From positions 372,001-436,000 of the forward strand of contig NZ_JAVDDV010000001.1 of NCBI RefSeq assembly GCF_030848565.1: a stretch of 64,000 nucleotides of DNA, in the 5' to 3' direction. Numbering within the stretch: the stretch's first letter is position 1; each line of letters opens with the position of its first letter. Source of the stretch: Natronolimnohabitans sp. A-GB9. Lineage in GTDB: Archaea; Halobacteriota; Halobacteria; Halobacteriales; Natrialbaceae. Position numbers and translations under genes: made by a program. Below the pieces are notes generated by a model that was not told the DNA's origin, made no database searches, and was given only the letters and a program-made list of their open reading frames with translations. Shown here piece after piece: positions 14,949-55,873 of the stretch.

Positions 14949-15393
14949 CGAGACACTGTATCCGGCCAACAAGAATAGCAGAGACCCCTAACCAGGTAGG
15001 ATTTCGGCCAGTGCGTATTTATGTCATGTCCGAAGCAACGTCTGTCCGAGAACGTATAGTATCGAGAAGATACTGTTTTTTGGACCGAACGGTCCCGCTC
15101 CTCGAAACGAGTTCGATCGATGGTGACGACGGTATCGGTCCCTCGAGTCACACCCCGGGACACCAATTCAGCCGGCGTCTTGGTGCACACTTGCCGCCTC
15201 CTTATTCCTCTCGCAAAGCAGCCTCGATAAGCCGCCGCTGTCACGCGGTTCTTCTCTTAGTTAAAGACAGATGGACATAGTTGTTGGTTAACCCGGCGAC
15301 AGGACAGCGTTTAGTATCTTTATTTTAACCATCTGTTATTATTTAGAATAATAAAAATTTTTAAGCTACTATTAGTCAATGTGTTAACTGAAG
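14949..15393. other. 445-bp gene-free border of the AT-rich island
   Basis: No plausible gene is seen. Base composition changes from GC-rich to AT-rich near 15240-15300, marking the left edge of the island. Features include a short palindrome TATTATTTAGAATAATA (15336-15352) and a TATA-like TTTTTAA serving the next gene. No tRNA or direct-repeat attachment site was found by eye. Confidence 0.5.
15358..15364 (+). promoter_or_regulatory. TATA-like box of the halocin-like gene
   Basis: TTTTTAA is centred about 33 nt upstream of the ATG at 15394, in an AT-rich stretch that also holds a 17-bp palindrome. The spacing fits a very short leader. Inference only. Confidence 0.35.
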
Positions 15394-16215
15394 ATGAGAG
15401 AAACAAATTCATCAATTCGACGACGGACGATCCTAAAATCAGCCGCGGCAACGACGACTGGTTTCGCTGCTTCGACAATGAGCGTTACTGCTAAGGAATT
15501 GACGAATTCAGAGCGTGACGAATTTATTAAAAGAACACGTTCGGACAAGAAGGTTAAAGAATTAATTGAGCAATATGGTTTCATTGGTGAACAAAGATGG
15601 GACGATGCTGAAGTAACTGAAGTTACAAAAGATGATGAAACAACATACTTTGTGCGAATTCCATATGTTGTTGATGGAACGGAGAAAAAGCCAGAAAGTG
15701 CAGAGATCGTATGGACCAACAACGAAGAGCTGCCACCGACTGCAGTCCATACTAAAGAAGACAAATCCGGAGCCATCTTTGTATCAGCATATTTCCCTTC
15801 AGAATCCGGTGATGAGAATGTCCTAAACGTCTCGATAGACCAGGATCAAAAACAATCCAGTCGCGGTGAGTTCACACCCCAGCAGGTGACTGGACCAGCA
15901 GGAATGTGTGGATTTGGTAAGTTTCCCAACCTCTCGTGTGCATACGATTGGGTGGAGGCTAACGAGCAAGTGTCTCGCAGTTGTAGTATCTTTACAGCCT
16001 CTATTGCCACAGGAGTGAAACCAGTTATTGTTGCCTCCGGACTATGGTGTGCTTGGGATCTTGAACAGGAAGGAATTTCTCCAGAAGATTGTGACCTCTG
16101 TACTAGTGATCTCAGTGAAGCAGCATCCGGAATCCCCATTGATCCAAGTGACATTCCCACAGACCCTGACGACTTCCCAAGTCGTCCCTCCTGGAGTGAT
16201 CTTTCACCAATCTAA
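15394..16215 (+). CDS. Tat-exported Cys-rich protein, halocin C8 precursor-like
   Basis: A 273-aa AT-rich gene unlike its neighbours in codon use. A Tat signal is evident (NSSIRRRTILKSAAATTTG, cleavage near residue 33). Residues 35-160 are a charged pro-region (ELTNSERDEFIKRTRSDKKV, FVRIPYVVDG). Residues 170-237 form a compact domain with six cysteines (172, 182, 197, 219, 233, 236) around a hydrophobic helix (FTASIATGVKPVIVASGLW), then a Pro/Asp-rich tail. The layout is that of halocin C8 precursors: Tat signal, immunity-like pro-domain, Cys-rich antimicrobial domain. Mature HalC8 has ten cysteines, so this is a divergent relative at best. Confidence 0.55.
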   Translation: MRETNSSIRRRTILKSAAATTTGFAASTMSVTAKELTNSERDEFIKRTRSDKKVKELIEQYGFIGEQRWDDAEVTEVTKDDETTYFVRIPYVVDGTEKKPESAEIVWTNNEELPPTAVHTKEDKSGAIFVSAYFPSESGDENVLNVSIDQDQKQSSRGEFTPQQVTGPAGMCGFGKFPNLSCAYDWVEANEQVSRSCSIFTASIATGVKPVIVASGLWCAWDLEQEGISPEDCDLCTSDLSEAASGIPIDPSDIPTDPDDFPSRPSWSDLSPI

Positions 16216-16338
16216 TAACAGATGATCTGGAATATGAGTTTATATAATTAATCTAATTATAAATTTTATTATGTATAAATAATATTGCTATTGTGTAGGG
16301 GAGTAAAACTATTGTGGCTGAAGCAAGAATATGACACC

Positions 16339-16689
16339 ATGCCCACAGCAAACGGATTCCGAAGGCTATTACGAACCTCTGGATGGACTGTTGGTCTCAT
16401 CGTTGTTTTCGCCGTGTTAGGGCTTCAATTGGTGCTCTTGTATTCATCTATATCCAATGGAGAAAACAACGTTATTCTATCGCTGACAGGGGTATACGTA
16501 GCCGCTATGCTCGTCTTTGGATATGCAACGAAACGCCTCCAATCAGAACGGTTCCTTGCTGTTCTCTTCGCTGGATGGTCACTTCTTATGGCCACCAATT
16601 ATGTTATTAGCACTTCGGTCGGCGATGCAATGATAGCCGGCTTTACCGCAATCTGTGCAGTATACTATCTCTATGAATGGCTAGCTTAG
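16339..16689 (+). CDS. four-helix small membrane protein next to the halocin-like gene
   Basis: A 116-aa protein with four predicted transmembrane helices (WTVGLIVVFAVLGLQLVLLY, VILSLTGVYVAAMLVFGYA, FLAVLFAGWSLLMATNYV, AMIAGFTAICAVYYLYEW). It lies 123 bp downstream of the halocin-like gene on the same strand and in the same AT-rich island. A TATA-like stretch (tgtataaataat, 16271-16282) precedes it. Small membrane proteins next to antimicrobial peptide genes often act in immunity or export, so that is the leading hypothesis. No family is recognised. Confidence 0.5.
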   Translation: MPTANGFRRLLRTSGWTVGLIVVFAVLGLQLVLLYSSISNGENNVILSLTGVYVAAMLVFGYATKRLQSERFLAVLFAGWSLLMATNYVISTSVGDAMIAGFTAICAVYYLYEWLA

Positions 16690-16702
16690 CATTGGTCTTT
16701 AG

Positions 16703-16902
16703 TTAGGCCTCAGCAGTCGGTTTGATGGCGGTAGCGAGTTGTTCTTGGAGAAAGGGTTGGGGACAGCGATCTCGTCGAGCCCGTACTCCACGAGGTCGAA
16801 CAGATCTGCTTCAAACGTCGGCGTCAGCCGCTGATAGAACACTTCTGACACGAGTATGAGCGTGTCGAGCGAGTCGACGAGGAGTGCGAGACGGTCCCAG
16901 TC
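16703..16902 (-). pseudogene. gene remnant of unknown family
   Basis: The minus-strand frame reads DWDRLALLVDSLDTLILV, SEVFYQRLTPTFEADLFDLV and EYGLDEIAVPNPF to a stop at 16703. Its coding-like character (helical, Leu/Asp-rich) and lack of a convincing start suggest the 3' part of a decayed gene. No known family is recognised. It is bounded upstream by an IS200/IS605-like end. Confidence 0.35.
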
Positions 16903-16944
16903 TCGCCGTTGCCCCGTGGGTGTCTCATCTGTCCGATCTCGAGG

Positions 16945-16977
16945 GCGACCGCTCTTTAGGGCGGGAGGATGTCAACC
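16945..16977 (-). mobile_element. IS200/IS605-type right-end remnant
   Basis: On the minus strand the sequence begins TTGACATCCTCCCGCCC and forms a small hairpin (CCGCTC-TTTA-GGGCGG on the plus strand, one G-T pair). The GACATCCTCCCGCCCTAAAG arrangement resembles ends of haloarchaeal IS1341/IS605 elements. No transposase is adjacent, so it would be a scar. Confidence 0.35.
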
Positions 16978-16983
16978 GAGGGC

Positions 16984-53591: not shown

Positions 53592-54137
53592 TCAGCTACC
53601 CACCGCTGAGGCGGTGGGCTTGTCAGTGGACTCTCGTTCTGCCGACACAGGTGTGTCGGACGCCACGTCAGTAGCGTTCACGGTCATCACCCCCGACTTC
53701 AGGGCGGACTGACAGAACGCCCCTCCAGCAGGGGACTTCTGCCCCCGCTGGAGTTTGAGCGCGAGTTTCCGAGCACCGTTCTTTGCGGCGTTATCATCGG
53801 CGTTCACCGTGTACGAACACTCCGAGCAAGCGAACTGTTGCCCGTCGCGGTTTTCTTCAAGCGCACACCCGCATTTTGAACACTGCTGACTCGTGTACGC
53901 CGGTTCGACTTTCTCAACCGTGATGCCGGCCAGTTCCGCTTTATTCTCGGTTTGTTCTTGGAGCTCGCGGAACGCCCACTGCTGGAACTTCTTGCCATCG
54001 CTAATCCGCTCTCGAATCCGCTCCAAGTTCTCGAACGCGATATGTGTGCTATGTGTGCAATGTGGTCGTCAACGTTGCAGTCCACGCCGAGGACGTTCGA
54101 ATCCTCGACTTTCTCGGGACTGTTCGCGTCGATCTAG
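53592..54137 (-). pseudogene. tnpB: IS200/IS605-family TnpB, internally deleted
   Basis: Remnant of an RNA-guided transposon nuclease gene. The distal part (codons from about 54026 to the stop at 53592) encodes ERIRERISDGKKFQQWAFRE, the zinc finger CSKCGCALEENRDGQQFACSEC split over 22 residues, and NADDNAAKNGARKLAL. Further upstream, in another frame, is SPEKVEDSNVLGVDCNVDDH. Thus the RuvC-I Asp, RuvC-II Glu (AFENLERI) and RuvC-III Asp remain, but the roughly 60 residues normally between RuvC-I and RuvC-II are deleted and the junction near 54040 is out of frame. The N-terminal half is gone. Confidence 0.82.
53599..53618 (-). mobile_element. IS200/IS605 right-end hairpin
   Basis: CCCACCGC-TGAG-GCGGTGGG forms a perfect 8-bp stem with a 4-base loop at the 3' end of the tnpB remnant. 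In active elements this region is the transposon right end and the 3' part of the omega RNA. Here it overlaps the last tnpB codons. Confidence 0.6.
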
Positions 54138-54275
54138 CGCTCCATTACGGCGTGCGGGCACCTAGGAGCTCTCGAGGCGCGGTTTCGTTATTCGATTGTG
54201 GTAATCTCAGTCGAAATATTCATCATACAGAAATAATTGATCGAATTATGGTTATATTGAAATACAACTTACCCA

Positions 54276-54449
54276 TTACTGATCGGATCTACTAGAGACC
54301 AACGCGAAGATCGTCACAAGTACACCTATTCCCATGTACATAACCTCTGTCCATATGACCGATCCTATTTGACCTATCAAAGACAAAATTCCAAACAGTA
54401 CTGTTATCTGTAATCCAAGAACCGAGATTATAATATCTCTAGTCTTCAT
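54276..54449 (-). CDS. 57-aa two-helix membrane protein
   Basis: A short AT-rich frame, starting MKTRDIIISVLGLQITVLFG and ending LVTIFALVSSRSDQ. Two hydrophobic segments (about residues 6-27 and 36-52) make it a likely inner-membrane hairpin. A TATA-like TTTAAACC is centred about 24 nt upstream of the ATG, suggesting a leaderless mRNA. It lies 60 bp downstream of the secreted-protein gene on the same strand, as in small effector/immunity pairs. No family recognised. Confidence 0.5.
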   Translation of the reverse strand: MKTRDIIISVLGLQITVLFGILSLIGQIGSVIWTEVMYMGIGVLVTIFALVSSRSDQ

Positions 54450-54509
54450 ATAAAATACTATTGTTCTCTCGGGTTTAAATCTTTATGCTGTTAAGTGTTT
54501 GTTTGACAT

Positions 54510-55289
54510 TTACATATATGGGTCTGGATTTTCATCATCTGCTATGTCAAAATTCTCAGTGCTATCCCATCCGGAAAGCGCAACGTCAATTGGTCCAGCA
54601 CCTCCAGAGATGCTATCGATAGACCCTGAGCCACCATTATGAACGTAGGTGGCAAATATATTACCTGCTACGCCGTCCAGATTCCTTAACTCTGTCATCA
54701 ATGCCACATTCGTCGTCTCTGGTGGATAGGGGACGCCCCTAATATAGAAATCAACCGGCAAGTCAACGTTTGCAGCCAAACCTCCATCCTCCAAACTATT
54801 AGAGTAGAACGATATTTCTCCTTCTTCTTCAACACCGTCTGGGTAATTAACTGTTTTAGATGTTGAACCAACAACTGACCAATGATCGTCGTCAAACGAA
54901 ATGCCGATAGCATCATCTGTGCCATCATAATTATCAGCAAACGGGTCTACCTCCTCAAGTGCCATTGATGCTGTGGCCCAAATCCTATCCGGGTGGTTGC
55001 TATTTTCAGCCAGCATTAGTTGCACCTCAGACTCGTCCTCATCATAACCGTATTCTGGTGTGACTTCCGACTCCTCTGACTGTTTTTCCTCTAACGTAGT
55101 CGAAGTTACAGTATAGTCTAAGTTTTGTTTTTCAAATTCGCCCTTCACACCTTCTAGTCCATCTTCATGAAAGCTTTCCACGATTTGTCTTCTGCTCCTT
55201 TCTCCGTTCCGGTTTTGAGCGGTGACAGTGCCAATCGTTCCCATTGCTGTGAGGGAGCCGACAGCCGCTATGATGCTTCTTCAGTTCAT
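54510..55289 (-). pseudogene. secreted AT-rich protein with an in-frame stop in the signal peptide
   Basis: A 244-residue open frame from the ATG at 55244. Upstream codons to an ATG at 55289 read M-N-stop-RSIIAAVGSLTAMGTIGTVTAQ, a clear signal peptide (arginine, hydrophobic core, AQ cleavage site) interrupted by TGA at codon 3 (55281-55283). A CGA codon there would give a twin-Arg start. An upstream ATG at 55311 is one base out of frame and could mean a frameshift instead. The mature part is acidic (EVTPEYGYDEDESEVQ), Cys-free and of unknown family, with a Gly/Ser-rich end. The gene is AT-rich relative to its surroundings. Confidence 0.55.
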
Positions 55290-55355
55290 GTTGAACTAAC
55301 TGGATTTTCATCCTAACTGTTTATTAAAGTTATATATCTGAACCACATTTTTCGA

Positions 55356-55873
55356 TTAAGAACTATTAATAATATTTTGTACGTCTACAGTACTTACCGT
55401 TATTTTCACAATCTGCTCTGAATAGAGGAACTGTCCTACCAACTTCTGTTGCGTCCCGAGTGTATCGATTTCGTCGCCGTCGAACGGCACCCGGACGGTA
55501 TCCTCGTCGACATCGATCGGGACCGTTTCGCCTGCGCTGAACTCGTCGTCGGGCCACGTCACCGACACGCCCTCGAGTGCCAGCCGGTCGCTCGCGAGTG
55601 CGTCGCCGGCCCGACGCTGAAGCCGTGCAACTCAATCTCGCCGTTCACGTGGGTCGTGTCCCGGTTGATCGCCTCCCGTACCGTCGTGATAATGTCGACA
55701 GTCTCCGTGGTCGTGTGCCCTTTCAGCGATCCGATTGCGAGCCGACCGGTCACGGCGTCGGCAGCGACGAGTTCGTGATAGCAGCGAACGTACTCCCGCG
55801 GCGTCGTCCCTGGGAGGGCAGCCATCGGTTCGGCGTCGATCCCGCGATCGCGACCAATACTGGGCCGGTCTGT
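55356..55873 (-). pseudogene. frameshifted fragment, TGT/DpdA-like
   Basis: GC-rich coding remnant in two frames. The first segment (stop at 55559) reads RDRGIDAEPMAALPGTTPRE, YVRCYHELVAADAVTGRLAI, GSLKGHTTTETVDIITTVRE and ends IELHGFSVGPA. The second, shifted by one base near 55605, reads DALASDRLALEGVSVTWPDD, EFSAGETVPIDVDE and DTVRVPFDG and runs into AT-rich DNA. The IGSL and LHGFSV spacing resembles the barrel of tRNA-guanine transglycosylases, especially the DNA-modifying DpdA branch; this is recalled pattern similarity only. The 5' end is missing. Confidence 0.4.

Follow-up and report, generated by a model that had tools for sequence, protein, structure and literature searches.

The catalogue that Makarova et al. 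presented in mBio in 2019 reportedly predicted many archaeal secreted peptides, accompanied by membrane proteins as immunity partners. The closest described system to the locus considered here is halocin C8, whose precursor ProC8 is exported by the Tat pathway and processed to yield HalI, an immune protein, and, from the C-terminus, the halocin (PMC11509114). The halocin C8 toxin gene itself thereby supplies the producer's protection (PMC8628083), and an N-terminal helix-loop-helix of HalI is essential for immunity according to a title cited in the review of this system (PMC11509114). The protease of HalC8 maturation is still to be assigned (PMC12893001).

We analysed a stretch of 64,000 nucleotides from Natronolimnohabitans sp. 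A-GB9 (contig C1, 372001-436000), referred to as the window, in which two genes occupy a small AT-rich cassette. The first encodes a predicted precursor that resembles ProC8 (TIGR04449; PF22862) in its putative Tat-type signal, in a homologous pro-domain opening with a helix-loop-helix, in a similar junction motif, in a C-terminal Cys-rich hydrophobic domain and in its length of about 280 aa. It differs from ProC8 in that the cargo has six Cys rather than ten, matches no TIGR04449 model and has no detectable sequence relation to the halocin C8 cargo; in addition, a proline- and aspartate-rich tail follows the Cys domain, and the membrane partner belongs to another family. Judged from sequence, the precursor is outside the halocin C8 family by the defining domain, yet shares its pro-domain. 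The features of the locus are as follows, in window coordinates.

15183..15273, + strand: right-end remnant of an insertion sequence (IS), comprising its last 91 bp with the terminal inverted repeat, at the left cassette border; aligns with 1313-1403 of the intact copy at 78% identity
15274..16689, no strand assigned: AT-rich cassette with both genes inside; GC 39-48% versus 64%, with IS ends bounding both edges
15358..15364, + strand: TATA-like TTTTTAA, read from the sequence, about 33 nt upstream of the ATG
15394..16215, + strand: halocin-like precursor, 273 aa; ORF with a full-length relative
15394..15501, + strand: putative Tat-type signal peptide, about residues 1-36; RRRTILK read from the sequence, weak TAT_signal match
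15496..15882, + strand: HalI-type pro-domain, about residues 35-163; homologous to the domain of halocin C8 precursors
15505-15576, + strand: helix-loop-helix, residues 38-61, within the pro-domain; AF2 model
15871..15882, + strand: FTPQ at residues 160-163, the junction motif and a candidate site of maturation; from motif comparison, with predicted cleavage
15907..16101, + strand: six-Cys cargo, C-9-C-14-C-21-C-13-C-2-C, residues 172-236; alignment with the relative
16339..16689, + strand: small membrane protein of 116 aa, probably conferring immunity; homolog downstream in the relative
16690..16848, + strand: left-end remnant plus internal piece of the IS, at the right cassette border; 63 bp at 94%, positions 990-1090 at 79%

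An AT-rich cassette between insertion-sequence ends

The original prediction had described an AT-rich island of deviant composition and codon use, and both properties were confirmed. GC drops to 39-46% at 15250-16750, compared to 64% for the whole window, and the GC3 of the precursor ORF is 0.37, compared to a median of 0.83 among 27 coding-like ORFs, the next lowest of which has 0.74. The cassette is 1.4 kb long and its span is exactly the gap between two IS ends. Just right of the membrane gene, positions 16690-16752 match the left end of an IS of 1403 bp at 94% identity; this IS is intact on contig C17 of the same genome, where it encodes a 434-aa DDE transposase (PF01609). Joined to this left-end remnant is the internal IS piece (16748-16848). 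The order of right end, cargo and left end places the cassette between two same-orientation copies of one IS, in a composite-like arrangement. Both flanking copies are decayed, making present mobility doubtful.

A full-length relative of the precursor was found only in the congener Natronolimnohabitans innermongolicus, so that 2 of 391 genomes of the class were positive, including that of the window, and a search across 85,000 species recovered that N. innermongolicus record alone. The flanks of the N. innermongolicus locus are different: suf genes lie on one side, and the opposite side carries an IS transposase together with a large DNA polymerase-like ORF (gene names read from translations). 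The IS ends at both borders, the narrow distribution and the different flanks in the relative all support the lateral acquisition that had been proposed, and show that the island is not part of a core shared by all relatives. The beta-propeller-like neighbour gene of the cassette was not found in the 20 relatives searched. A viral or plasmid origin was considered and rejected, as the precursor had no match in the plasmid collection and none in viral contigs, where halocin C8 had no match either.

Two further loci were observed during this work. On contig C45 of the same genome (G000), a gene for a 221-aa Tat-type Cys-containing secreted protein precedes one for a DUF5518 membrane protein of 152 aa (L134:1211-2998), and about 460 bp downstream the same IS end occurs as a remnant of 132 bp (87%). 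The window itself contains a second AT-rich island at 53900-55600 (GC 38-48%), in which a 244-aa ORF with no Pfam match (54510-55244, - strand) adjoins a transposase-like ORF fragment.

A halocin C8-type pro-domain joined to a different cargo

The precursor ORF contains all six predicted Cys residues, at 172, 182, 197, 219, 233 and 236. Its full-length N. innermongolicus relative (E 1e-43, 37% identity) keeps all six, which shows that the ORF is not a chance one, and identity between the two species, counted from the alignment, is about 56% in the six-Cys region and about 22% in the pro-region. At the N-terminus we read RRRTILK, then a weakly hydrophobic stretch to VTA-K, with no lipobox. By eye, this twin-arginine motif fits the predicted Tat-type precursor of halocin-like order, with a weak Pfam TAT_signal match (E 0.44); the N. 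innermongolicus relative matched a Tat model at E 0.0015. The placement of TTTTTAA would give a near-leaderless precursor mRNA. Searches of NCBIfam (TIGR04449 included), Pfam, PHROGs and PDB sequences returned no significant match for the precursor, and a weak match to Csf4 helicase, far below cut-off, was taken as chance.

A profile search against halocin C8 precursors had been suggested as a check of the proposed relationship, which proved to be true homology in the pro-region and to have no detectable counterpart in the Cys domain. Pro-regions were compared by hhalign after signal peptides had been removed, with a comparison set of about 55 TIGR04449 precursors that included a 283-aa protein (L036) we take to be halocin C8 itself. 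We read it as such because its last 76 residues, after PTPA, match the published mature length (PMC11509114). The pro-regions of the window and N. innermongolicus scored 32.7 (64%) against the family, rising to 39.9 (86%) when the G183 precursor, which is related, was included, compared to at most 15.1 in 150 column shuffles and at most 19.3 in 183 unrelated protein segments. A leave-out HMM of 37 family pro-domains, built without the window, N. innermongolicus and G183 sequences, picked out the window pro-domain from 2,614 six-frame ORFs with E 1e-4; another such HMM, made from only 12 sequences, missed it (E 0.45). A profile of 12 family members and 13 newly found pro-domain proteins gave E 6e-8, a slightly circular value, since those 13 came from a profile including the window sequence, whereas the E 1e-4 figure is not circular. 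By hhalign, this 25-member profile reached 92.7% (shuffles at most 15.7, real segments at most 20.2). The N. innermongolicus pro-domain taken alone was weak throughout (E 0.02-1.5; hhalign 46%). With hhalign values of 64-93% against these controls and the leave-out HMM at E 1e-4, we assign the region as a HalI-type pro-domain. The Pfam model PF22862 Hac8_like_N (cut-off 27 bits), which we take to represent this same domain, did not match the window precursor, which the broader profile made here did reach. An AF2 model contains a helix-loop-helix (38-50, 52-61) with strands after it, and pLDDT rises to 84 in the first helix.

For the cargo, TIGR04449 (cut-off 24 bits) gave no match at E up to 10, and hhalign against the halocin C8 domain gave 0.1%, so that kinship of the cargo with halocin C8 has no sequence-level support. 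The claim of a cysteine framework unlike that of halocin C8 is supported. The databases searched held no detectable homolog of the cargo among known antimicrobials, and its scores against cargos of the C-14-C-2-C-n-C-2-C-13-C type and against L174 fell inside the shuffle range. Structure prediction, also suggested at the outset, gave no confident model of the cargo (mean pLDDT 47), and a fold search with this low-confidence model found nothing below E 0.2.

The candidate maturation site lies at the junction of the two domains. Of 53 halocin C8-type precursors, 18 have the pattern [VIF][STA][TAPISV]Q in the 45 residues that precede the Cys domain; the pattern is seen in only 2 of 138 segments taken from elsewhere in these precursors and in 3% of background segments. 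These figures are of moderate weight because we had already looked at the sequences when we defined the pattern. The motif is present in the window precursor (FTPQ), N. innermongolicus (VATQ) and G183 (ITAQ). The closest pro-domains outside the genus are those of the G183 and G077 precursors (L031, L165), with FVRIP and IVW/IIW motifs and a shared [VI][STA]xQ junction. They differ from the window precursor in a 14-15 Cys cargo of another framework and in an N-terminal extension with a VDDGGGC-like motif, and our scan found no small membrane gene directly downstream of them.

The membrane partner and the proposed function of the gene pair

The best start of the second gene is the ATG at 16339. 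Its product had been predicted to be a four-helix membrane protein; it is indeed a small membrane protein, in which a simple hydropathy scan counts three segments and four are plausible. A homologous gene, a conserved partner, is found downstream of the precursor in both species, with a profile score of 37.5 (84.8%) compared to about 20 for unrelated membrane segments; BLASTP alone gave E 0.05. In N. innermongolicus, a gene for an APH-type phosphotransferase (kinase) lies between the precursor and membrane genes (L063:9084-10148). The membrane family has matches at E 0.001 or better in 19 further genomes of the class, and the homologs examined there stand without a precursor. The intervening kinase gene and the many homologs without a precursor suggest that the membrane protein may have another role. 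An export function, one of two roles originally envisaged, is unlikely, since export by Tat does not call for an exporter of its own, and Pfam matches to the protein were all below cut-off. Small ORFs with two to four membrane segments also follow halocin C8-type precursors within 150 bp in 20 of 53 cases, compared to 10 of 143 controls (Fisher p 8e-7, with members that are not independent). A relationship between the window membrane family and these partners was considered and found no support (0.6%).

Taken together, these results make it probable that the locus encodes a halocin-like peptide antibiotic on a cassette that was acquired laterally, was moved by IS elements and is bracketed by their ends. 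The precursor, predicted to be exported by Tat, combines a HalI-type pro-domain with a distinct six-Cys cargo; antimicrobial activity, and immunity conferred by the small membrane protein, are predicted properties. By analogy, the precursor probably works like that of halocin C8, and the same maturation course is likely because its pro-domain chassis is homologous to that of ProC8. The precursor would leave the cell by the Tat pathway and be cut near the FTPQ junction by an extracellular protease. The N-terminal product would be a HalI-type domain, and the C-terminal one a six-Cys peptide with up to three disulphides. This peptide would act against competing haloarchaea. The neighbouring membrane protein is the likely immunity factor and would protect the producer, possibly with help from the pro-domain once this is released, just as HalI confers protection from halocin C8.

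A cargo without a recognised relative, and a membrane protein whose homologs mostly occur alone, would also fit a secreted Cys-rich protein with a non-antagonistic role (a signal peptide, protease inhibitor, or metal or redox protein), for which the pro-domain would be a folding chaperone and the membrane protein a receptor or partner. We regard this as unlikely: where its function is known, the pro-domain is part of an antibiotic precursor (PMC11509114), and the variety of cargos on one chassis, the patchy distribution and the mobile cassette fit conflict genes better than housekeeping. That the pair is a decaying IS passenger without present function, as the decay of both flanking IS copies might imply, is highly improbable, since neither frame is broken and, although the proteins of the two species share only 37% identity overall, their conservation is highest in the cargo, which points to selection.

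Pro-domain proteins in other haloarchaea

The combined pro-domain profile had matches in 49 of the 391 genomes. Outside the TIGR04449 list, we found 25 further matches with a readable ORF, 13 of them Cys-rich and 12 with few or no Cys; weaker matches (E above 1e-5) may include chance ones. The 13 Cys-rich C-termini hold 8-14 Cys in frameworks mostly unlike that of halocin C8, and some of them (L168, L181, L186) may represent halocin C8 domains that have diverged. Several of the 12 Cys-poor proteins are without a signal peptide. L169, L179, L183 and L187 have neither a signal peptide nor a Cys-rich cargo and are possibly orphan immunity proteins; L169 matches Hac8_like_N at 1e-5, just under its cut-off. 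We read these sequences as one chassis with exchangeable cargo, together with orphan pro-domains.

Other observations concern individual loci. The precursors at L042, L051, L109, L116, L165, L166 and L031 share an N-terminal extension ahead of the twin arginines, in which a motif resembling ELN.AVDDGGGC.EA occurs. In G163, and near-identically in G032, a 298-aa Tat-type protein with 8 Cys (L065:6507-7748), whose cargo resembles the C-14-C-2-C-n-C-2-C-13-C type, has a 115-aa membrane protein 4 bp downstream. The genome of the window also has a true TIGR04449 member on contig C56, a halocin C8-like precursor of 280 aa (L064:5953-6792), the only gene in the host genome matched in a search with TIGR04449.

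We tentatively propose, as an idea whose chances fall a little short of even, a polymorphic haloarchaeal archaeocin system in which one HalI-type pro-domain has been recombined with many unrelated Cys-rich warheads and varied small membrane immunity proteins, and which also includes warhead-free orphans. Halocin C8 would be only one member of this system and the window cassette a mobile, IS-carried and unclassified six-Cys example, with the pro-domain perhaps serving as both delivery chaperone and immunity module. As a domain joined to many Cys-rich cargos, the HalI-type pro-domain provides a search key for new archaeal antibiotics, and the junction motif narrows the hunt for the maturation protease. 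In addition, which of the two confers immunity, the pro-domain or the membrane protein encoded next to it, is now directly testable.
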